Source: Microbacterium sp. RU33B (GTDB lineage: Bacteria > Actinomycetota > Actinomycetes > Actinomycetales > Microbacteriaceae). Taken from it: a DNA stretch of 64,000 nt. Numbering within the stretch: position 1 is the first letter of the stretch; every line of letters begins with the position of its first letter. This document shows, piece after piece, positions 138 through 10,064 of this stretch. Made by a program: the position numbers and the translations under genes. Under the pieces are notes generated by a model that did no database searches, was not told the origin of the DNA, and saw only the letters and a list, made by a program, of their open reading frames with translations. The stretch covers positions 1-64,000 of the forward strand of contig NZ_FTPO01000003.1 of NCBI RefSeq assembly GCF_900155915.1, read 5' to 3'.

Positions 138-1337
138 GTGTCCGCCGCCCAAGCCACGATCTTCCTGATCCCGGTGCTCGCCGTGCTCGCGCCCCTGCTG
201 GCGCGCGGCGTCGGGGTGTTCGTGCGCGTTCCCGTGGTCGTGTTCGAGCTCATGCTCGGCATCCTCGTCGGCCCCGCCGTGCTCGGCTGGGCCGCTCCGT
301 CGGAGTTCGTCGAGCTGCTGTCGGAGTTCGGCCTGGCGATGCTGTTCTTCGTCGCGGGATCCGAGATCCAGCTCTCGGCTTTCCGCGGCCGCACCGGGCG
401 ACGCGCCGTCGGCGGCTGGTTCGTGAGCATCGCGCTCGGTATCGCCGTGGGGTGGCTCATCGCCCCCGGCGAAGCGGCGATCGTGATCGCCATCGCCCTG
501 AGCTCGACCGCGCTGGGGACCATCCTTCCCATGCTCCGCGACAACGGCGAACTGCGCACGCCGTTCGGCAAGGCCGTCGGTGCGATCGGCGCGGTGGGCG
601 AGTTCGCGCCCCTCGTCGCCATCTCGATCTTCCTCGGCGGCCGTGACCCGGGCATCGCCACGATCGTCCTGATCGCGTTCGTCCTGGTCGCCGCGCTCGC
701 GATCTGGTGGGCCTTCCGCGCTCCGCAGGGCGCCCTGCACCGCTTCGTCAACGCGACGCTGCACACCTCGGGCCAGTTCGCGATCCGCGTCGTGTTCCTC
801 GTGCTCGGCGCGCTCGTCGTGGTGAGCCTCCTGCTCGATCTCGACATGCTGCTGGGTGCCTTCACGGCCGGCATCGTGTGGCGCCTCGTCATGCGCGATG
901 CGGCCGCGGCCGATCGTGACGCGGTCGAGAGCAAGATCGAAGGCGTCGCGTTCGGGTTCCTCGTGCCGGTGTTCTTCATCTACACGGGCGTCACGTTCGA
1001 CCTCGAGGCTCTCCTCGCCGATCCGGAACTCCTGCTCCTTCTGCCCATCGGCCTCGCGGGGCTCCTGCTCGTGCGCGGACTGCCGTCGATGCTCGCCGCC
1101 CCGGCCGACTCCCGGCCCCGCGATCGCGCGGCCGTCGTGTTCTTCGGTGCGACGGGTCTGCCGATCATCGTCGCCGTGACGAACATCGGGGTGGACGAGA
1201 AGATCCTGTCCTCAGGGCTCGCAGCCGCCCTCGTGGGCATCGGCATGCTCTCGGTGCTGGTGTTCCCCGTGATCGGCACGACCCTTCGCGGCGACGCGGT
1301 CGGGGCGTCGCTCCCGGTCGCCGAAGAGCGCCTGTGA
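138..1337 (+). CDS. Cation/proton antiporter, Kef/CPA2 type
   Basis: A 399-residue integral membrane protein of the monovalent cation:proton antiporter-2 family, which exchanges Na+ or K+ for protons across the plasma membrane. It has about 11-12 hydrophobic segments. The N-terminal half carries a conserved-looking ELMLGILVGPAVLG helix and a later SSTALGTILPML segment typical of the Na_H_exchanger domain. No cytoplasmic TrkA-N (NAD-binding) domain follows, so this is a transporter-only form. The GTG start is chosen because a TAGCCT -10 box lies 6 nt upstream. The stop overlaps the next start (GTGA, 1334-1337), so the two genes are translationally coupled. The ion specificity cannot be read from the sequence. 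Confidence 0.85.
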   Translation: MSAAQATIFLIPVLAVLAPLLARGVGVFVRVPVVVFELMLGILVGPAVLGWAAPSEFVELLSEFGLAMLFFVAGSEIQLSAFRGRTGRRAVGGWFVSIALGIAVGWLIAPGEAAIVIAIALSSTALGTILPMLRDNGELRTPFGKAVGAIGAVGEFAPLVAISIFLGGRDPGIATIVLIAFVLVAALAIWWAFRAPQGALHRFVNATLHTSGQFAIRVVFLVLGALVVVSLLLDLDMLLGAFTAGIVWRLVMRDAAAADRDAVESKIEGVAFGFLVPVFFIYTGVTFDLEALLADPELLLLLPIGLAGLLLVRGLPSMLAAPADSRPRDRAAVVFFGATGLPIIVAVTNIGVDEKILSSGLAAALVGIGMLSVLVFPVIGTTLRGDAVGASLPVAEERL

Positions 1338-2736: not shown

Positions 2737-3421
2737 CGGATGCCGCGAGCACCCGGCCCGCGACGGCGTCGAAGTCGCTCGCCGGGAAGTAGCCGTCGTC
2801 GCGGTACACGGCCATGCGCTCCGTGAAGGCGCGCGTCGTCGGCTCGGGGTGGAACTGCGTCGCGTACAGGCGATCGCCGACCCGGTAGGCCTGCACGGGG
2901 CATCCGTCGTTCGTCGCGAGCAGCGTCGCCCCCGGCGGCACGGCACCCGACCCCTCCTTATGGGCCGTCAGCGCGGTGAAGCTGCGGGCGAGGCCGCCGA
3001 GGATCGGGTCGGCTCGTCCGTCCTCCGTCAGGTGCACCGTGACGGGCCCGGTGTCTTCGGGATGGCCGCGACTCACGTCGCCTCCGAGCATCCGCGACAC
3101 GACGCCGATGCCGTAGCACGTGAACAGAGCCGCAGTGCGCCGGGCGGCGGCCGCCTCGGCCAGGCCCAGGAGGTCCGCCTCGAGACGCCGCTGCACGTCG
3201 GTCTTGCTCGACTCGGGATCGGTCACGTTGAACGGGCTTCCGCCCACGACGAAGCCGCTGTAGCGGTCCGCGACGTCGGTCGGAGCCGTCTCGCGCACGA
3301 GATCGAGCGATGCCAGCTGATGCGGCTCGAGCCGCATGGCGGTGCGGAAGGACTCGTACTCGGCCTCGGCCGCACCCTTCTGAGGGCGGACGCACACATA
3401 GAGCAACGGCGCGCCGATCAT
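2681..3421 (-). CDS. Class I glutamine amidotransferase-like protein
   Basis: A 246-residue protein of the type 1 glutamine amidotransferase fold (GMP-synthase-like, stand-alone). The nucleophile elbow reads FTCYGIGVV with Cys102. The His-x-Glu pair is in QFHPEPT (His191, Glu193), so the Cys-His-Glu triad is complete. No synthetase domain is attached. Such stand-alone proteins release ammonia from glutamine or a gamma-glutamyl compound for an unknown partner. The ATG is preceded at 6 nt by TAGACT. The last 56 bp overlap the 3' end of the TspO-like gene on the other strand. The true substrate is not evident. Confidence 0.8.
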   Translation of the reverse strand: MIGAPLLYVCVRPQKGAAEAEYESFRTAMRLEPHQLASLDLVRETAPTDVADRYSGFVVGGSPFNVTDPESSKTDVQRRLEADLLGLAEAAAARRTAALFTCYGIGVVSRMLGGDVSRGHPEDTGPVTVHLTEDGRADPILGGLARSFTALTAHKEGSGAVPPGATLLATNDGCPVQAYRVGDRLYATQFHPEPTTRAFTERMAVYRDDGYFPASDFDAVAGRVLAASVTEPVRMLRAFAQAFGPG

Positions 3422-3427
3422 GAGAGG

Positions 3428-3433
3428 AGTCTA
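3428..3433 (-). promoter_or_regulatory. -10 box of a leaderless promoter for the amidotransferase
   Basis: Read on the minus strand, TAGACT is separated by 6 nt from the ATG at 3421. Confidence 0.6.
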
Positions 3434-3466
3434 GGCGGGTGCGCCGCGCGGGGCGAGAATGGGTCC

Positions 3467-3724
3467 GTGGACGTCATCCTCATCCCGGCAGACGCGCGTC
3501 TGGGGCGCGCCGTGTCCGCGCTCCGGGACGCCGCGGGCGTGTACGGGTGGGGTCTCGAGGCCGAGGAGCCGGTCGGGGGCGTCGCGCGCGTGCGCGTCGT
3601 GCCGGGAACGTGCACCCGGCGACCCGAAGCGCGGCGTGTGCTCGAGCGGGTGCGCTGCGGCGACCGGGCGGTCGTCGAGGGCGCCGAGATCGTCCGCGAG
3701 GGCGACGCGGCGACGCACGGGTAA
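3467..3724 (+). CDS. Small protein resembling the N-terminal domain of the nearby S8 peptidase
   Basis: An 85-residue protein starting at GTG 3467. The hexamer GAGAAT, a weak -10, lies 6 nt upstream, the geometry of leaderless genes in this region. By eye it aligns with residues about 59-167 of the subtilase encoded at 4949-6610. The small protein reads LRDAAGVYGWGLEAE where the subtilase reads LQDAASDFGWSVRLE. Both continue with an HRVRI/ARVRV strand and then a P-x-A-x-R-x-L-x-R-x-R helix. The subtilase has a longer loop between the strands. I infer a free-standing copy of the pro- or recognition domain, possibly an inhibitor, folding helper or adaptor of the protease. The alignment is visual, and the gene could be an artefact of high GC. 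Confidence 0.55.
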   Translation: MDVILIPADARLGRAVSALRDAAGVYGWGLEAEEPVGGVARVRVVPGTCTRRPEARRVLERVRCGDRAVVEGAEIVREGDAATHG

Positions 3725-3725
3725 C

Positions 3726-3757
3726 TTTTTTCCGACATCACGTATCAGCGGTGCGTC
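3726..3757 (+). promoter_or_regulatory. T-tract plus TCCG...GTATCAG motif upstream of the sigma gene
   Basis: A run of six T is followed by TCCGAC, then GTATCAGCGGTGC. Nearly the same arrangement (A-run, TCCGTC, GTATCAGGGATGC, one base longer inside) is found at 9121-9153, just after the last gene of the island. About 17 of 25 aligned positions agree. The placement at both island borders suggests a regulatory site, perhaps recognised by the island's own sigma factor. This is inference. Confidence 0.4.
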
Positions 3758-3775
3758 TTCCCCCCTCTGCAGGGT

Positions 3776-4435
3776 GTGGACAGAATGGTCGGCATGGGCG
3801 AAGTCGGACTTCCCCGGCCCCTTGACGAGAGCGACGACGGAGCAGCGGACTCCGATGCTCGTGATGTCACGCGCTGGGAACAGGCAGGCGATCTCTTCAC
3901 GCGCTGGGTCGACGGAGAGACGCGGGCCATGGACGACCTCGTCCGGCTCATGTCGCCCGTGCTGTGGCAGATCGTGCGGTCGTACGGCCTCGACAGCGCC
4001 CTCGCGGAGGACGTGGTTCAGACCACGTGGCTGACGCTCGTGCGTCGGCACGAATCGATCCACGAACCGCGGGCGATCTCGGGCTGGCTCACCGTCAGCG
4101 CGCGCCGCGAGGCCTGGCGCGTCTCGCGCCTGCATCGCCGCGCCGACGCCAAGGAGGCGATCGATCTCGAGCCGCACCTGCCGTCCGCCCCGTCGGCGGA
4201 GCACCTCGCTTCGCTCGACGACGAGGCGCGGCGGCTCTGGGATGCGGTGGGTCTCCTGCAGGAACGCTGCCAGCGGCTGCTGCGGGTCATCGCGTTCGAT
4301 GAGCGTCCCGACTACGCCCACATCGCACAAGAGCTCAAGATGCCGATCGGATCGATCGGCCCGACACGTCAGCGGTGCCTCGGAAAGCTCCGGGCGCTGC
4401 TGGAGGGAGAGGACCGAGGACATGAACGCCTCTGA
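3776..4435 (+). CDS. Sigma-70-like (ECF-type) RNA polymerase sigma factor
   Basis: A 219-residue sigma factor with region 2 at about residues 36-110 (WQIVRSYGLDSALAEDVVQTTWLTLV, the core-binding and -10-recognition helices) and region 4 at about 150-210 (HIAQELKMPIGSIGPTRQRC, helix-turn-helix for the -35). It has no region 1.1 or 3, as in ECF factors. GTG 3776 gives the longest form. ATG 3794 is an alternative, because CAGAAT lies 7 nt upstream of it. The next gene starts inside its 3' end (ATG 4422, 14-bp overlap). Its position in front of a subtilase and a CHAT protease suggests it controls this island. No ZAS-type anti-sigma gene is present. Confidence 0.85.
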   Translation: MDRMVGMGEVGLPRPLDESDDGAADSDARDVTRWEQAGDLFTRWVDGETRAMDDLVRLMSPVLWQIVRSYGLDSALAEDVVQTTWLTLVRRHESIHEPRAISGWLTVSARREAWRVSRLHRRADAKEAIDLEPHLPSAPSAEHLASLDDEARRLWDAVGLLQERCQRLLRVIAFDERPDYAHIAQELKMPIGSIGPTRQRCLGKLRALLEGEDRGHERL

Positions 4436-4892
4436 CGCATCCTCGGACGCGGCGCTGTTCGCCCGTATGCGAGCCGTCTGGCAGTCGGTGGACCCCGTGC
4501 CCACCGGGCTGGTCGATCGGATGGTCGCCGCCGTCGCGGTGGAGGATCTGACCCGGGAGTACGAGATGCTCACCCTCGTCGAAGCGGCAGGCCTCACGGC
4601 CGTCCGCAGCGAGACGGATGCCTCGACCCTGCAGTTCACCGACGGCACCACCACGGTCCTCCTCCACGTCACGATGGCGGAGGGCGGCGGACGCCGGATC
4701 GACGGATGGGTCGACGCCGATGCCCTCGCGGTCAAGCTCGCCCAGGGCGAGCGCGAGTGGTCGGCGGATGCCGGGGAGAGCGGCCGGTTCGCCTTCGACG
4801 ACGTCGCGGCCGGGATGTCGCGCGTGCGTCTGGTCGTGCGCGACGCCGGCGGCGAGATGCGCGAGTTCCAGACCCCGCAGTTCGAGGTCTGA
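4422..4892 (+). CDS. Cysteine-free beta-domain protein coupled to the sigma factor
   Basis: A 156-residue cytoplasmic protein starting inside the end of the sigma gene, so the two are translationally coupled. The N-terminal half is helical (about 1-60). The C-terminal half contains GRFAFDDVAAGMSRVRLVV, a strand-turn-strand pattern like the transthyretin/CarboxypepD_reg-type beta sandwich. Its place directly after a sigma gene is where an anti-sigma factor is normally found. However, it has no cysteine at all, so it cannot be a zinc-binding (HxxxCxxC) anti-sigma factor, and it has no membrane helix. It may regulate the sigma factor through the beta domain or act as a substrate or sensor of the downstream proteases. 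I do not assign a function. Confidence 0.75.
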   Translation: MNASDASSDAALFARMRAVWQSVDPVPTGLVDRMVAAVAVEDLTREYEMLTLVEAAGLTAVRSETDASTLQFTDGTTTVLLHVTMAEGGGRRIDGWVDADALAVKLAQGEREWSADAGESGRFAFDDVAAGMSRVRLVVRDAGGEMREFQTPQFEV

Positions 4893-4948
4893 TCCCACGA
4901 CAGGATGCGGGGCCCCCGGCATCCTGAATCACCACAGGAGAACACAGC

Positions 4949-6610
4949 ATGGCGATCGAGCCTCCCGACGACCGGTCCGCGACCTCACCCCCGCCCAGGC
5001 GCCAGCGCCCGTCGGACTGGCGCGAGCGCTTCGACGCCGCCCGGGAGAAGGGGGTCTCGCTCGATCCGAAGAGCGAGCACGTCGAAGGGGTCAGCGCGTA
5101 CCCCACGGCCTACGAGCCCCAGCAGCTCCTCGTCACCGATGCCACGCAGCTCCAGGCGACCGTCGGACTCCTCCAGGACGCCGCATCGGACTTCGGCTGG
5201 AGTGTGCGGCTGGAGAACCTCGACGGCACGCCGCTCGACGTCGACGAGGCCGTCGCCCGCGAGCGGCGCGCGGCCGACGCATACGACATCCCCACGATCC
5301 ATCGCGTACGGATCTACCGCGATCCGAAGCCGGGGAGGGACGATCAGCCCGTGCCGCCGATCGACGCCTGGCGGCTGCTGCAGCGCGCGCGGGCGCGCAC
5401 CGAGAACGACGCCGCGGGCCGCGCGCTGCTGATCGGCGTGGGCCTGGACCACGTGCTGTCGCTCGACCCCTACGGCGGCAAGACCAATCCCTACGGCGGC
5501 AAGACGAACCCGTACGGGGGGAAGACGAACCCGTACGGCGGGAAGACCAACGGCACCGAGAGCTACGGCGAGCCCGGCAGCGGCGGGCGCCAGGTCGTCG
5601 GCTTCGTCGGGCCTGATCCCGTGCGCACGCTTCCGCTGAGCGAGAAGGGCCGCCGTCCGGTCGTCGCCGTGCTCGACACGGGATGCGGCTCCCATCGGTG
5701 GCTGACAGGCGACATCGTGACCACCTACCCCGAGGTGGAGGCGAAGGTCATCGGGGTGGCGGACCGGACGACCGATCCGGAGGTGCTCGGCGACGTGTCC
5801 GGCCCGTTCGACGGCGCCCTCGACGATGCCGCGGGCCACGGCACCTTCATCGCGGGCATCGTGCGACAGGTGAGCCCCGAGGCCGACATCGTGTCGGTCA
5901 GAGTCGCCGACAGTCAGGGCACGCTCCTCGAGGGCGACTTCCTGCACGCGGTGCGCTCCCTCGTGAAGCTCATGTCGCTCCCGGTGGAGGACGGCGGGCG
6001 GCACATCGACGTGCTCAACCTCTCCCTCGGGTACTACCACGAGACTCCGCAGGACGACCTGTTCGACCTCACGCTCGTGCGCCTTCTGCTCGCCGCGCGC
6101 CGCCGCGGCTGCGCCGTCGTGTGCTCGGCGGGCAACGACTCCACCGACAGGCCGACGTTCCCCGCGGCGCTGTGGGGATGGGACGGCGCCGACTTCGTGG
6201 TGCCCGACCCGGATGACGTCGCGCCGCACGTGTCGGTCGGCGCGCTGAACCCCAACGGCACGATGGCGCTGTTCAGCAACCTCGGGGCCTGGGTCACGAC
6301 GTTCGCACCGGGGGCCGCGGTCGTCAGCACGTCGCCGGGGTTCAACGGGGGCGCGCAGCCCGGTGTGCGCGACGACCGCGACGGCATCCGGCGCGAGACG
6401 ATCGACCCCGAGGACTTCACGGGCGGCTTCGCGATCTGGAGCGGAACGTCGTTCGCCGCTCCGTACGTCGCGGGGCTCCTCGCGCGGGCGATCGCGGGCG
6501 ACCTCATGTCGGGGGCGATCGTCACCGCGGAGGATCGTGTCTCCGCGCTCCTCGAGGCCGAGGCCGTCGTGGTCCCGGTGCTGGCGAAAGCGGGTCCGCG
6601 GGCCGTGTGA
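4949..6610 (+). CDS. Cytoplasmic S8 subtilisin-like serine peptidase with PYGGKTN repeats
   Basis: A 553-residue S8-family peptidase. The catalytic residues are visible: Asp243 in VVAVLDTGCG, His297 in AAGHGTFIAGI, the oxyanion Asn396 in CSAGND, and Ser501 in WSGTSFAAPYVAG. Residues about 55-168 form a separate N-terminal domain that resembles the small protein at 3467-3724. Residues 174-201 are four perfect PYGGKTN heptapeptides, a flexible linker just before the catalytic domain. There is no signal peptide or membrane anchor, so the enzyme is probably intracellular, unlike most subtilases. The ATG follows an AGGAG ribosome binding site at 8 nt. It lies between the sigma/beta-domain pair and the CHAT protease and is probably co-transcribed with both. 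The linker is an obvious candidate cleavage site for activation (inference). Confidence 0.9.
   Translation: MAIEPPDDRSATSPPPRRQRPSDWRERFDAAREKGVSLDPKSEHVEGVSAYPTAYEPQQLLVTDATQLQATVGLLQDAASDFGWSVRLENLDGTPLDVDEAVARERRAADAYDIPTIHRVRIYRDPKPGRDDQPVPPIDAWRLLQRARARTENDAAGRALLIGVGLDHVLSLDPYGGKTNPYGGKTNPYGGKTNPYGGKTNGTESYGEPGSGGRQVVGFVGPDPVRTLPLSEKGRRPVVAVLDTGCGSHRWLTGDIVTTYPEVEAKVIGVADRTTDPEVLGDVSGPFDGALDDAAGHGTFIAGIVRQVSPEADIVSVRVADSQGTLLEGDFLHAVRSLVKLMSLPVEDGGRHIDVLNLSLGYYHETPQDDLFDLTLVRLLLAARRRGCAVVCSAGNDSTDRPTFPAALWGWDGADFVVPDPDDVAPHVSVGALNPNGTMALFSNLGAWVTTFAPGAAVVSTSPGFNGGAQPGVRDDRDGIRRETIDPEDFTGGFAIWSGTSFAAPYVAGLLARAIAGDLMSGAIVTAEDRVSALLEAEAVVVPVLAKAGPRAV
5468..5551 (+). repeat. Four tandem 21-bp repeats coding PYGGKTN
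   Basis: The copies are 5468-5488, 5489-5509, 5510-5530 and 5531-5551. The protein repeat is perfect, but codons for Pro, Gly and Asn vary between copies. This means the peptide, and not only the DNA, has been kept. Confidence 0.95.
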
Positions 6611-6643
6611 GCGGTCCCGGTGCGGACGGGCCAGGATGGGAGC

Positions 6644-9121
6644 GTGGCTCGCTCGCCGGATGCACTCCATCGGTCGGCGGTCGACCTCGTCAACGCAGGA
6701 CGTTTCGTCGAGGCCGAGCGCCTCCTCGCGCGCGCGGCCAGGTCGGCGGACACGGCAGACCTCCGAGCGCGCATCCAGGGCACGCTGGCTGTGGCTCTCG
6801 CGCATCACGGCGCGTTCGCGGAGGCGGTCGCCACGTGCGAGGCCGCCCTGGCGACCCCCGGCCTCGATCGGCCGACCCTCGCCCTCCTCACCGGGCAGCT
6901 CGGCACGATCATGGAGCGCGCCGGGCGCCTCGACGACGCCTACCGGTGGCTCGGTCGCGCGATCGATGAGGTCGACGACCCCGTCGCCCGCGCGAACCTG
7001 CTCGCCAACCGGGGCAACGTCGGCATGCAGCGGCGGCGCCTCGACGATGCCGCGCGCGACACCGCGGCCGCCGCGGAGATCTACGCGGCGCACGGTCGCA
7101 CGATCGACGAGGCGGAGATGCGCCACAACCTCGGCTACATCGACCTGCTCCGCGGCGATCTCGTCGCGGCGCTGCAGCAGATGCTGTCGGCGCGCAGCGT
7201 GCTCGGTCCGGTCTCGCCCGTCCATGCGGCGATCGGCGACGTCGACCGTGCCGAAGTGCTCCGCGACGCCGGGCTCCCTCGCGAGGCTGAAGCGCTCCTG
7301 GCCAAGGCGGCGGTGACGTTCGGCTCGACGCGGATGCCGCGCAGCCGCGCCGAGGCCGAGTTCAACCTCGCCCGCTCCCTCCTCGCCCACGATGCCCCGC
7401 AGGCCCGCCGCATCGCATCCTCGAGCGCGCGCCGCTTCGATGCTCTCGGCAACGCTCCCTGGGCAGCCCGCGCCCGCGCGCTCCGGCTCCGCGCGGAGCT
7501 GTCGCTCGACGGACTGACCCGCACGGGTGAGGTCGTTGCATCGTCGCGCCGCGTTCCGCCGCAGGTCGAGGTCGAGGTCGCGGCATCCGCTCTCGATCGG
7601 ATCGGCCTGCGCAGCGAGGCGGCCGCGCTGCGGATGACACGGCAGCTCTGGCGCCTGCGCCACGGGTCGACCGATCTCGACACCCCGGTGCGCGTCCCTC
7701 CCCGGGCGTCGCTCGATGTGCGGATGCTCGCCCATGAAGTGCGAGCGGCCCGCGCGGTCGCCCGCGGACGCGACGGCGAGGCGCGGCGTCACGCGGCGCG
7801 CGGACTCGGCGAGCTCGCGGAGTGGCAGAGCGAGTTCGGCAGCCTCGACCTCCAGACCTCGGTCGCGATGCACGGGAGCGGGCTCATCGTGTCGGGCCTG
7901 GACTCCGCGATCCGCACCGGCCGCCCCGACGTCGCGTTCGAGTGGTCCGAGCGCGCCCGTCACCTCAGTCAGCAGGTCGTGCCGCTGCGCCCGCCGCCCG
8001 ATCCGGGGCTCGCGGAGGACCTGGCCGAACTGCGGATGCTGCGCGCCGACGACCCTGCGGGCCTCGACTCGGCCCGCGCGGCCGAGCTGCGCGATCGCGC
8101 GCGGGAGCGGCAGTGGTCGGGAACCGGGTCGGCCGCCGTGCAGCAGCGGATCACGCTCGATGCGCTGCGCGCGGGGCTGGATGCCGAGACGGCTGTGATC
8201 TCCTTCGTGTTCTCCACCGCCGGACTCGCCGCCGTCGTCGCGACCCGGGACCGGGCGCGGTTCGTGCCGATCCACGGATGGGCGGACGTGCGCACGGCGC
8301 TTCCGGGTCTGCGCGCCGACCTCGACATGGCCGCCTCGATGCGCGCCGGGGGAGTGGCCGACGTGATCCGGCGCAGCCTCGACGGTCGCCTCGCTCAGCT
8401 GTCGCGCTCCCTCCTGCACGGGCCGCTCGCAGCGGCCGGCGATCACCGCCGCATCGTCGTGACGGTGCCCGGCATCCTCAACGGCATCCCGTGGGCGATG
8501 CTGCCCGCGATGCGCGGTCGCTCCTTCACACTCGCGGTGTCGGCGACCCGCTGGGCGGGCCTGCACGCGCAGACGCCGCCGCCGGTGCGGTCGGCGGGGT
8601 TCGTCGTCGGACCCCGCGTGCCGCGAGCCGACGAGGAGGTGACGGCGGCGTCGCACACGTGGGCGACCACCCGCACGCTGCGGGGGCCGGAGGCATCGGT
8701 CTCCGCCGTCACGGGCCTCGCGCACGAGGTCGACGTCCTCCACGTCTCCGCGCACGGACGCCACAGTGTCGACAACCCGCTCTTCTCGGGCATCGAGCTC
8801 GCCGACGGCACCCTGTACGGCTACGACATCGACCTCATCCCCGAGGTGCCCGAGACGGTCGTGCTGTCGGCCTGCGAGGTCGGGCGCTCGTCGGTGCGCT
8901 GGGGCGAGGAGGCGATCGGCATGACCCGCATCTGGCTGCACGCCGGCACCCGCTGCGTCATCGCCTCGCCGGTGATCGTCGCCGACGACGACGCGTGCGT
9001 GCTGCTGGGCGTGATGCACGAGGGTCTCGCGCGGGGCGAGGCGCCCGCCGATGCGCTGGCCGCGGCATCCGCGTCGACGGGGATCGTGGCTCCGTTCCAG
9101 GCGCACGGCGCAGGATTCTGA
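6644..9121 (+). CDS. TPR-CHAT protein (caspase-like cysteine peptidase)
   Basis: An 825-residue protein. Residues 1 to about 460 are helical, Ala/Leu/Arg-rich TPR-like repeats (for example ALAHHGAFAEAVATCEAAL and LLRGDLVAALQQML). The C-terminal third is a CHAT domain with the caspase-type dyad: His704 in LHVSAHGRHS and Cys744 in VVLSACEVGRS. There is no signal peptide. GTG 6644 is preferred over GTG 6620 because CAGGAT lies 6 nt upstream and a purine-rich stretch precedes it. The gene follows the S8 peptidase by 33 bp. CHAT proteases in bacteria are known partners in stress- and phage-triggered proteolysis, with the TPR part sensing the trigger. Applying that to this island is inference. A hairpin at 9275-9318 ends the unit. 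Confidence 0.9.
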   Translation: MARSPDALHRSAVDLVNAGRFVEAERLLARAARSADTADLRARIQGTLAVALAHHGAFAEAVATCEAALATPGLDRPTLALLTGQLGTIMERAGRLDDAYRWLGRAIDEVDDPVARANLLANRGNVGMQRRRLDDAARDTAAAAEIYAAHGRTIDEAEMRHNLGYIDLLRGDLVAALQQMLSARSVLGPVSPVHAAIGDVDRAEVLRDAGLPREAEALLAKAAVTFGSTRMPRSRAEAEFNLARSLLAHDAPQARRIASSSARRFDALGNAPWAARARALRLRAELSLDGLTRTGEVVASSRRVPPQVEVEVAASALDRIGLRSEAAALRMTRQLWRLRHGSTDLDTPVRVPPRASLDVRMLAHEVRAARAVARGRDGEARRHAARGLGELAEWQSEFGSLDLQTSVAMHGSGLIVSGLDSAIRTGRPDVAFEWSERARHLSQQVVPLRPPPDPGLAEDLAELRMLRADDPAGLDSARAAELRDRARERQWSGTGSAAVQQRITLDALRAGLDAETAVISFVFSTAGLAAVVATRDRARFVPIHGWADVRTALPGLRADLDMAASMRAGGVADVIRRSLDGRLAQLSRSLLHGPLAAAGDHRRIVVTVPGILNGIPWAMLPAMRGRSFTLAVSATRWAGLHAQTPPPVRSAGFVVGPRVPRADEEVTAASHTWATTRTLRGPEASVSAVTGLAHEVDVLHVSAHGRHSVDNPLFSGIELADGTLYGYDIDLIPEVPETVVLSACEVGRSSVRWGEEAIGMTRIWLHAGTRCVIASPVIVADDDACVLLGVMHEGLARGEAPADALAAASASTGIVAPFQAHGAGF

Positions 9122-9153
9122 AAAAAGTCCGTCGGCCGTGTATCAGGGATGCC
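9121..9153 (+). promoter_or_regulatory. Second copy of the TCCG...GTATCAG motif, after the CHAT gene
   Basis: It matches the motif upstream of the sigma gene (3726-3757) in TCCG, the spaced Cs and GTATCAG-G-TGC. It is followed 120 bp later by a terminator-like hairpin, so the 9155-9318 stretch may be a separate short transcript. Confidence 0.35.
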
Positions 9154-9274
9154 GGGGGTCGCTCTTGCTCCATGACGGCGTCGGAACGGAACGGATTGGG
9201 GATCCGGATCGCTTCTCGTCAGAGGCAGGACTCGGTGGAATCGTGGGGATTCCGAGGCCTGCAGACGTCGTCGC

Positions 9275-9318
9275 GCCGGAGGGCGCCCCTGTTCGGGTCA
9301 GGTGCGGCGCCCTCCGGC
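9275..9318. terminator. 13-bp perfect hairpin between convergent genes
   Basis: The arms 9275-9287 and 9306-9318 (GCCGGAGGGCGCC and its complement) are perfect, with an 18-nt loop. It lies between the CHAT gene and the convergent LysR-like gene and can serve both strands. There is no clear U-tract, as is common in actinobacteria. Confidence 0.65.
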
Positions 9319-9344
9319 CACGCCCGCGCGTGCGAGACGGTCGC

Positions 9345-10064
9345 TCAGCGCGAGGAGTTCGCCGTGCGCCCCCGCACGATGCCGACGAACGTGTCGACGA
9401 GCGCGTTCGCGGCATCGGCCCGCCACGCGATCGCGACCCTCGAGGCCGGGGCGTCGCGCAGCGGCCGCTGGTCGACGTCCTTGCGCTGATGAAGACGAGC
9501 GAGCGACATCGGGACGATGACGATGCCGACACCCGCCGCGACGGTGGCAATGGCCTCCTCCGTCGTCTCGGGCGGTGCGAAGCGCGGCGCCGTCGTGCCG
9601 GGAACGGCGAGACCGAGGACGTCGTCGGCGGGCGTGATCAGCACTTCGCCGGCCAGATCGTCGGCAGCGAGTTCGTCGGCCGCGGTGAGATGCGAGTCGA
9701 CCGGGACCACGACCACGGTCACTTCGTCGTACAGCGGGATCGTGTGCAGGCCGTCCGTGTCGAGCGGCAGTCGTACGAGGGCGACGTCGACCTCGTCGTC
9801 GTCGAACACCCGTCGTCCGTCTGCGACGGCGATCGGCACGACCTGGAGCGGGATGCGCGGCATCCGCTCCTGCCACGTGTCGATCCACTTGCCGGGGGTG
9901 GCGCCGGGGATGACGCCGACGCGGAGCGGACCAGGCGGCAGGGCCGGGGGAGCGACGACCGGCGGGGCCTGCTTCTTCGGACCTTTCGGCGTGCGCTGCG
10001 CCGTGCGCGCCGGCCTCTTCGGACCGCCCGTGCCCCGCGGGCTCTTCCCGCCGCTCTTCGCCAT
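9345..10064 (-). CDS. LysR-type substrate-binding domain protein lacking the HTH
   Basis: A 239-residue protein. Residues 1-45 are a Lys/Arg/Pro-rich tail (SGGKSPRGTGGPKRP and on). Residues about 46-230 match a LysR-type effector-binding fold: LRVGVIPGATPGKW, DVALVRLP, LYDEVTVVVVPVDSHL and AAGVGIVIVPMSLARL. No winged-helix DNA-binding domain precedes it, although the start is well fixed by TAGCCT 6 nt upstream of the ATG. It could sense a small molecule without binding DNA specifically, or the basic tail could bind DNA or RNA in a non-specific way. The family is known as stand-alone 'LysR substrate-binding domain' proteins in related actinobacteria. The ligand is unknown. Confidence 0.75.
   Translation of the reverse strand: MAKSGGKSPRGTGGPKRPARTAQRTPKGPKKQAPPVVAPPALPPGPLRVGVIPGATPGKWIDTWQERMPRIPLQVVPIAVADGRRVFDDDEVDVALVRLPLDTDGLHTIPLYDEVTVVVVPVDSHLTAADELAADDLAGEVLITPADDVLGLAVPGTTAPRFAPPETTEEAIATVAAGVGIVIVPMSLARLHQRKDVDQRPLRDAPASRVAIAWRADAANALVDTFVGIVRGRTANSSR

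Follow-up and report, generated by a model that had tools for sequence, protein, structure and literature searches.

The closest working analogue of the locus described here is, by analogy, the CRISPR type III-E Csx29/Csx30/CASP-sigma module. In the sections of PMC10028731 on which we draw, the TPR-CHAT protease Csx29 cuts Csx30, the inhibitor of the ECF factor CASP-sigma. As far as these sections describe it, that module resembles our island in combining a TPR-CHAT protease, an ECF-like sigma factor and a sigma-side partner in one locus, and in having a sigma motif within its own locus. Unlike the CASP module, the island adds a subtilase with a repeat array, its partner has 156 aa versus 565 for Csx30 (same sections of PMC10028731), and it stands in a genome in which we found no Cas1 at E≤0.001. 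RRNPP and arbitrium systems, in the portion of PMC9232636 considered here, likewise join a TPR domain to short covarying peptide motifs with few residues setting specificity, and in AimR one TPR residue can set peptide specificity. There the effector is a DNA-binding domain, whereas in the island it is a CHAT protease. Unlike in RRNPP systems, the island motif is repeated in tandem inside a protease; no secreted propeptide gene is evident (by eye) beside the TPR gene within the island, and the motif is internal to the subtilase.

Pro-subtilisins and intracellular subtilisins share with the island S8 protein a propeptide-like domain and an S8 catalytic domain; unlike pro-subtilisins, the island protein carries a tandem lock-and-key array at the processing junction. 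Yeast alpha-factor-type pheromone precursors also hold identical short copies within one protein that differ between species, although the island array is fused to a protease and apparently cytosolic. We found no paper on this operon or array in the open-access literature (PMC; subscription journals were outside the scope). TPR-CHAT/sigma switches are of a known kind; new here are the array of identical copies in a subtilase, the coupling of its aromatic residue to TPR residue 206, and the promoter motif.

Results

Layout and conservation of the locus

We analysed a stretch of 64,000 nucleotides of Microbacterium sp. RU33B (the window; contig NZ_FTPO01000003.1, positions 1 to 64,000), whose relevant features are collected in Table 1. 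The first-pass annotation had described a five-gene island, read in one direction with tiny gaps and closed by a hairpin. All five open reading frames are on the plus strand with small gaps, but gene 1 lies outside the conserved unit. The hairpin is present but has no T-run, and it probably terminates a putative RNA structure distinct from the operon, which has its own promoter motif at 9140. Among the five frames, Pfam identified Sigma70_r2, Peptidase_S8 and CHAT with a weak TPR, in agreement with the proposed sigma-70-like factor; gene 1 had no Pfam family, and the partner gave nothing above the Pfam cut-off. Other readings of the proteins also held: the partner sequence has no cysteine, no signal peptide is evident in either protease (by eye), and both proteases are catalytically complete. 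Residues D243, H297, N396 and S501 of the S8 domain were invariant in 22 of 22 aligned sequences, and the CHAT peptidase domain (PF12770), found above its cut-off, has a His/Cys dyad, His712 and Cys752 (P0005 numbering; 704 and 744 in alignment A2), that was invariant in 20 of 20.

Table 1. Positions of features of the locus within the window
Feature	Position	Strand	Remarks
Gene 1 (85 aa)	3467..3724	+	Copy of the subtilase pro-domain standing alone; this genome only
Promoter motif GTATCAG-N16-CTCTG	3742..3769	+	5' of the operon; motif common to relatives' loci
ECF-like sigma factor	3776 (GTG) or 3785 (ATG)..4435	+	PF04542 E 2.7e-8; TIGR02937 E 3.8e-16
Sigma partner, 156 aa	4422..4892	+	Overlaps the sigma gene
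Subtilase (S8) zymogen (supported reading), 553 aa	4949..6610	+	PF00082 E 7.3e-23
Subtilase pro-domain, residues 53-171, propeptide-like fold	5105..5461	+	Best-predicted part of the model
Tandem array PYGGKTN x4	5468..5551	+	Between pro-domain and catalytic domain
TPR-CHAT caspase-like protease	6620 (or 6644)..9121	+	PF12770 E 5e-25
Gly206 codon, TPR region of the CHAT protein	7235..7237	+	Covaries with the array's aromatic residue
Second promoter motif GTATCAG-N15-CTCTT	9140..9166	+	3' of CHAT
Putative structured RNA	9174..9272	+	Two or three hairpins inside a closing helix; fold z -2.77
Terminator-like hairpin without T-run	9276..9318	+	9276-9287 pairs with 9307-9318

The sigma, partner, S8 and CHAT genes occurred together in 38 of the 39 loci examined; the 39th (L025) ends at a contig end before CHAT. 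Hence, the expectation that the four main genes would be neighbours in related genomes was borne out, and the scattered homologues that would have spoken against it were not found. Their order was sigma-partner-S8-CHAT in 30 of the 39 loci, S8-sigma-partner-CHAT in six and sigma-partner-CHAT-S8 in two. A CHAT relative was present in 61 of 119 Microbacterium genomes, in one of them only as a short fragment (G646, E 6.7e-5), and the CHAT protein in 6 of 150 family genomes, this genome included. Searching the phylum with the S8 pro-domain gave at least 6 of 396 genomes, a lower bound because at most nine candidates were scored per genome. The island occupies a fixed chromosomal site in many species, with an amidotransferase on one side and a LysR-type gene on the other. 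Among the best 29 other LysR-gene loci, from 116 genomes with a LysR match, the LysR gene was adjoined by CHAT or S8 in 22, and in seven the amidotransferase lay directly beside it, forming an empty site.

An array of identical peptide copies at the subtilase processing junction

The structural model of the S8 protein had a mean pLDDT of 65.3, with a well-predicted N-domain (residues 53-171). We compared it with known structures by VIA-align 2. From residue 50/57 on, it aligned with PCSK9 (Z 20.9, rmsd 4.2, 293 aligned) and with unprocessed pro-subtilisins (3whi; Z 19.1, rmsd 4.1, 285 aligned), and the N-domain is therefore predicted to occupy the propeptide position. The nearest PDB sequences were CylA and intracellular subtilases. 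The Asp/His/Ser triad and the modelled N-terminal propeptide fold before the catalytic domain support the view that the subtilase is a zymogen, in which a propeptide-like domain would be joined to the catalytic domain via the tandem array.

The array lies directly 3' of the pro-domain, exactly at the pro/mature junction, and consists here of four PYGGKTN copies, each with a different DNA sequence. An array preceded the catalytic domain in 57 of 57 loci scanned, with three to nine identical copies of a unit of 5-7 residues. Eighteen loci had been found with peptide patterns that included two array pieces, while 29 genus loci (of the 61 bearing CHAT) were found via the CHAT protein alone, and all of the latter had arrays. 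After three loci were dropped as DNA-identical to another, 54 distinct arrays held 244 perfect copies of 36 different units, with a period of 6 in 47 arrays, 7 in four and 5 in three. The units differ between species; their usual pattern is N-P-[F/Y]-x-x-[T/S], and divergent units include GYASGV, GYGDGV, HPFWVG, HPFWGG and HPYDEG.

Between copies (54 arrays, 264 units, of which 19 are imperfect edge copies included in the counts), pS was 0.473 versus a pN of 0.042. Thus, although their DNA diverged long ago, the copies have been kept alike as protein. This synonymous divergence speaks against copies that are identical through a recent duplication of DNA, with the exception of L119, in which three copies are DNA-identical. 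We also considered that array units might be common to other proteins and rejected this: PYGGKT occurs nowhere else in this genome outside the array, and four-residue pieces of the units were absent from the sigma, partner and CHAT proteins of 24 loci.

Covariation of the array with the TPR region of the CHAT protein

With other regions held constant, the distance between array units tracked the distance between TPR regions (partial r 0.45, 17 genomes). The partial r was 0.42 in 21 genomes and 0.31 in 26 further genomes, and none of 1000 permutations was as high in either set. The CHAT domain gave nothing comparable to the TPR signal, and the S8 catalytic domain reached a partial r of 0.37 with the 26 further genomes and of -0.04 with the 21. 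The mean per-column covariation signal in the TPR region was small (0.010), with one column standing out, residue 206 of P0005, which follows the aromatic residue of the unit (MI 0.88; next best column outside the array, 0.57). Among 47 genomes, Gly206 accompanied 18 of 19 Tyr units and a non-Gly residue (Cys, Ser, Ala or Asn) all 26 Phe units; a single Val unit occurred with Ile206 and a single His unit with Asn206. The rule was concordant in 44 of the 45 Tyr/Phe genomes, the sole exception being L130, whose array mixes one NPFTKT with five NPYTKT.

To place these states on a tree, we used S8 catalytic and CHAT-side columns only, without the TPR region and the array. Each trait changes at least 10 times on this tree. 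Of six independent well-supported pairs, five agreed and none disagreed, the sixth being unchanged (sign test, p 0.0625). Among 10,364 simulated traits that change 7-13 times, the highest concordance was 37 of 45, short of the observed 44, a comparison uncorrected for the choice of column 206 as the best of many. The divergent S8-first group breaks the rule in L031, L032 and L084, which have Ala with GY units; S8-first L085 and L086 have Ser and Pro with HPF units, as the rule expects. For unit positions 4 and 5, the top columns were in the TPR region (N249 and N126), barely ahead of S8 and other columns, and unit position 6 had no covarying column. The covariation of residue 206 with the unit's aromatic residue suggests that the TPR domain probably binds the array; in the sigma-first type, direct contact between this domain and the aromatic residue is very probable. 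Searching PDB sequences with the CHAT profile matched TPR proteins; Csx29 was not among them.

Sigma factor, partner and promoter motif

The sigma factor matches TIGR02937 (sigma70-ECF) over residues 51-207. Regions 2 and 4, together with a putative promoter motif with a spacing of 15 or 16, point to an ECF sigma factor. The partner adjoins it in all three gene orders. Its AlphaFold2 model (pLDDT 84.4) comprises two N-terminal helices and a nine-strand beta sandwich, with no fold match in the PDB at E≤0.001; by sequence, too, PDB chains gave no match at E<0.07. Pfam, other profiles, and PDB sequence and fold searches detected no relation to any known anti-sigma factor. From the gene overlap and the constant adjacency, we infer that the partner is an anti-sigma factor.

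The promoter motif has the general form GTATCAG-N15/16-[G]CTC(C/T). It was found before operons of all three gene orders and 5' of the first gene in 17 of 24 loci, S8-first L031 and L032 included. On the strand of the operon it recurred 3' of CHAT, in 13 of the 22 loci whose CHAT gene is complete and in 23 of the 29 genus loci; when S8 comes after CHAT, as in L153 and L154, this second site stands before S8. The strict motif had 41 sites in the 150 family genomes; the six genomes with CHAT account for 15 of them and 22 of the remaining 144 genomes for 26, and a reversed control motif had four sites in the six CHAT-bearing genomes versus the 15 strict ones. Eight strict sites in these six genomes were unlinked to the island versus 1.08 expected from the 144 others (p 1.8e-5). 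With looser spacing, five genomes had 13 motif sites versus seven for the reversed control, which is thus also common, so that counts alone are weak.

All eight unlinked sites lie 32-99 nt 5' of a plausible start codon. In L039 the gene behind the site encodes an S8 subtilase with vWA, in L045 a calpain-like C2 protease and in L051 a decarboxylase frame whose N-part resembles a membrane protein. The proteins of L037 and L038 are membrane-like and related to each other; like those of L042 and L049, they have no Pfam family. The protein of L044 is SDR-like (by eye). In L023, a vWA protein follows the motif site 3' of CHAT. The sigma factor very likely transcribes the operon, a small number of unlinked genes and, in many species, the putative structured RNA that follows the operon.

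A putative structured RNA behind CHAT

The RNA of the window folded with a z-score of -2.77, and 4 of 200 shuffles folded equally well; z-scores across 15 sequences ranged from -0.08 to -3.57. In relatives the closing helix covaries, positions 5-8 showing three to five pair types (18 sequences, with ends chosen with complementarity in view). Across 33 loci, 5' strands paired better with their own 3' strands than foreign ones did (18.2 versus 13.6, p 6e-7), and the own strand was the best of all in nine. For the window RNA, 1 of 32 foreign 5' strands pairs as well as its own, and in 5 of the 33 loci (L128, L136, L144, L019 and L021) most foreign 5' strands pair better.

A covariance model built from nine sequences (R1) found three further loci at E≤0.001 among 50 sources, namely L083, L120 and L126, the last of which is near L124. 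R1 does not recover the window's own RNA and found nothing elsewhere in this genome at E<0.7. Rfam gave no family, its sole match having E 0.67 on the opposite strand. A small protein behind the second promoter was set aside in favour of an RNA because start codons are not conserved. A structured RNA is likely in a subgroup of loci, and in the window it is putative.

Genomic surroundings and the question of defence

A place of the island beside defence genes, about which the first-pass annotation had asked, was not supported by the near flanks. Pfam identified the near flanks (frames at ~0.1-3.4 kb and 9.3-19.6 kb scanned) as a Na/H exchanger, TspO, the amidotransferase, the LysR-type domain protein, DUF1304, SNase, Fpg/Nei and an Lhr helicase, which look like housekeeping genes. 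PADLOC matched the Lhr helicase to DpdJ (6.5e-169) and SNase to C3a212 (2.6e-19), and we read both as shared-domain hits because of the Pfam match to Lhr. On the island itself, PADLOC found no full catalogued system and only generic matches (S8 to 'subtilase', 2.4e-11, and IetS, 1e-5; CHAT to BovA, 0.008). No plasmid relatives were found at E≤1e-30. Phage carriage was considered and rejected, since the sole match in the phage collection, MT838002, is apparently a piece of bacterial chromosome: it carries S8-sigma-partner-CHAT followed by a cysteine-synthase-like frame. This entry (MT838002.1; L152, 1-7478) is deposited as 'Bacteriophage sp.' from human faeces, and the last frame was recognised by eye.

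Discussion

The reading we favour, at roughly even chances, is a two-protease switch with its own transcription factor, in which the TPR domain of the CHAT protein would recognise the array motif and residue 206 would read its aromatic residue. Of the earlier proposal, this reading retains a pair of regulated intracellular proteases under dedicated transcription control, which fits well with the conserved neighbours, the ECF-like promoter motif and the covariation between subtilase and CHAT protein; gene 1 and the defence setting drop out of it. The mechanism is borrowed from the cutting of the CASP-sigma inhibitor Csx30 by Csx29, and we infer the trigger and the order of cleavage. The partner would keep the sigma factor inactive. 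A signal from within the cell would activate one of the proteases, CHAT most probably, which would dock on the array, cut there or adjacent to it, and free the subtilase from its propeptide. The active protease or proteases would then destroy the partner, and the freed sigma factor would amplify the response and induce further proteases. If this is true, the island would be a CRISPR-independent bacterial caspase-like cascade, possibly related to the CRISPR-linked TPR-CHAT/sigma modules, in which one protease recognises a dormant second one via a repeated tag, the tag and one TPR residue evolving like lock and key. Its specificity code, Tyr going with Gly and Phe with Ser/Cys, would be simple and testable, and the island would offer an example of tandem copies held identical by protein-level selection and not by DNA exchange, and a direct way to test the targets of cellular CHAT proteases.

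The same array could instead be a multi-copy peptide precursor. The self-processing subtilase would free identical peptides of 5-7 residues, which would bind the TPR domain and switch on CHAT, much as an RRNPP pheromone acts on its receptor but inside one cell, a reading we consider unlikely. The identical copies within a protein, the differences between species, the TPR covariation and the unit length all fit it, as does the binding of short peptides in the TPR groove of RRNPP receptors (in the portion of PMC9232636 considered). However, no secretion signal is evident, there is no separate propeptide gene, the array stays within the protease and not in a small precursor, and a covalent docking site accounts for the same data. 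That the whole island is an intracellular peptide-signal circuit, in which one zymogen cleavage would send many identical messages to the next protease and, via the sigma factor, to transcription, appears doubtful to us, if a little less so; species-specific units would then prevent cross-talk between related circuits.

An anti-phage or suicide system, whose cascade would kill or arrest infected cells, we also hold to be improbable. Patchy presence (61 of 119 Microbacterium and 6 of 150 family genomes), the existence of empty sites, and the action of other TPR-CHAT proteins in CRISPR immunity, as described in the cited sections of PMC10028731, speak for it. The fixed chromosomal site in many species, the housekeeping neighbours, and the lack of both plasmid relatives (at E≤1e-30) and genuine phage carriage, the only phage-collection match being apparently bacterial chromosome, speak against it, and they leave the phage-defence role carried over from other CHAT families unsupported. 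Much less probable still is a proteostasis or envelope-stress operon with the array as a mere flexible spacer. An ECF-like sigma factor, protease targets elsewhere and housekeeping surroundings would suit such an operon, yet the copies of a mere spacer would not stay identical while differing at 47% of synonymous sites, and a spacer would not change in step with a residue of a different protein.

Gene 1 and further sequences at the motif and the site

We considered gene 1 as a beta-domain member of a conserved operon and rejected this. It matches the subtilase pro-domain: profile A3, which contains the window's own S8, gave 23.0 bits in two colinear blocks (E 3.5e-9 for a single sequence), versus at most 11.7 bits among 2000 shuffles, and BLASTP against the S8 protein of its own genome gave E 0.002. 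No standalone relative was found in the 149 other family genomes or in the other loci examined for it, and gene 1 is thus not a conserved island member. Free propeptides can inhibit their subtilase in trans. Gene 1 could be such an in-trans inhibitor, or a remnant.

Several frames behind the GTATCAG motif resemble each other. L037 (3648-4175), L038 (3780-4268) and L051 (1-1464, minus strand) have a common 'RYLPxE.AGTA' stretch, and in L051 this membrane-like part is in one frame with an ornithine/DAP-type decarboxylase. Divergent ORFs of ~60 aa behind the motif in L011 (~4183, minus strand) and L012 (~9438, plus strand) share 'HPPLP.E.PGGLPELI', and ORFs at the motif in L013 and L023 begin with a similar 'LP.E.PD' stretch. 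In L086, a gene that points away from the S8-first operon and lies behind the motif (8376 onward, plus strand) encodes a 493-aa protein that resembles, by eye, a trypsin-type protease and has C-terminal 'PVTRDP' repeats. The Na/H exchanger gene of the window (138-1334, plus strand) lies 2 kb from the island and has no strict promoter motif before it; nhaA is the top motif match outside the CASP locus in the sections of PMC10028731 cited here.

The LysR-type protein of the window (9345-10064, minus strand) has a substrate-binding domain, and Pfam found no HTH in it. A second CHAT-domain protein is encoded in the same genome, distant from the island (G000:C4:1337105-1337482; L002, L014; E 9e-11). 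In L009, a 4-kb insertion on the opposite strand (3233-7310) parts S8 from CHAT, and its frames resemble, by eye, a phosphonate-type transporter, a phosphatase-like protein and a TetR-like protein.
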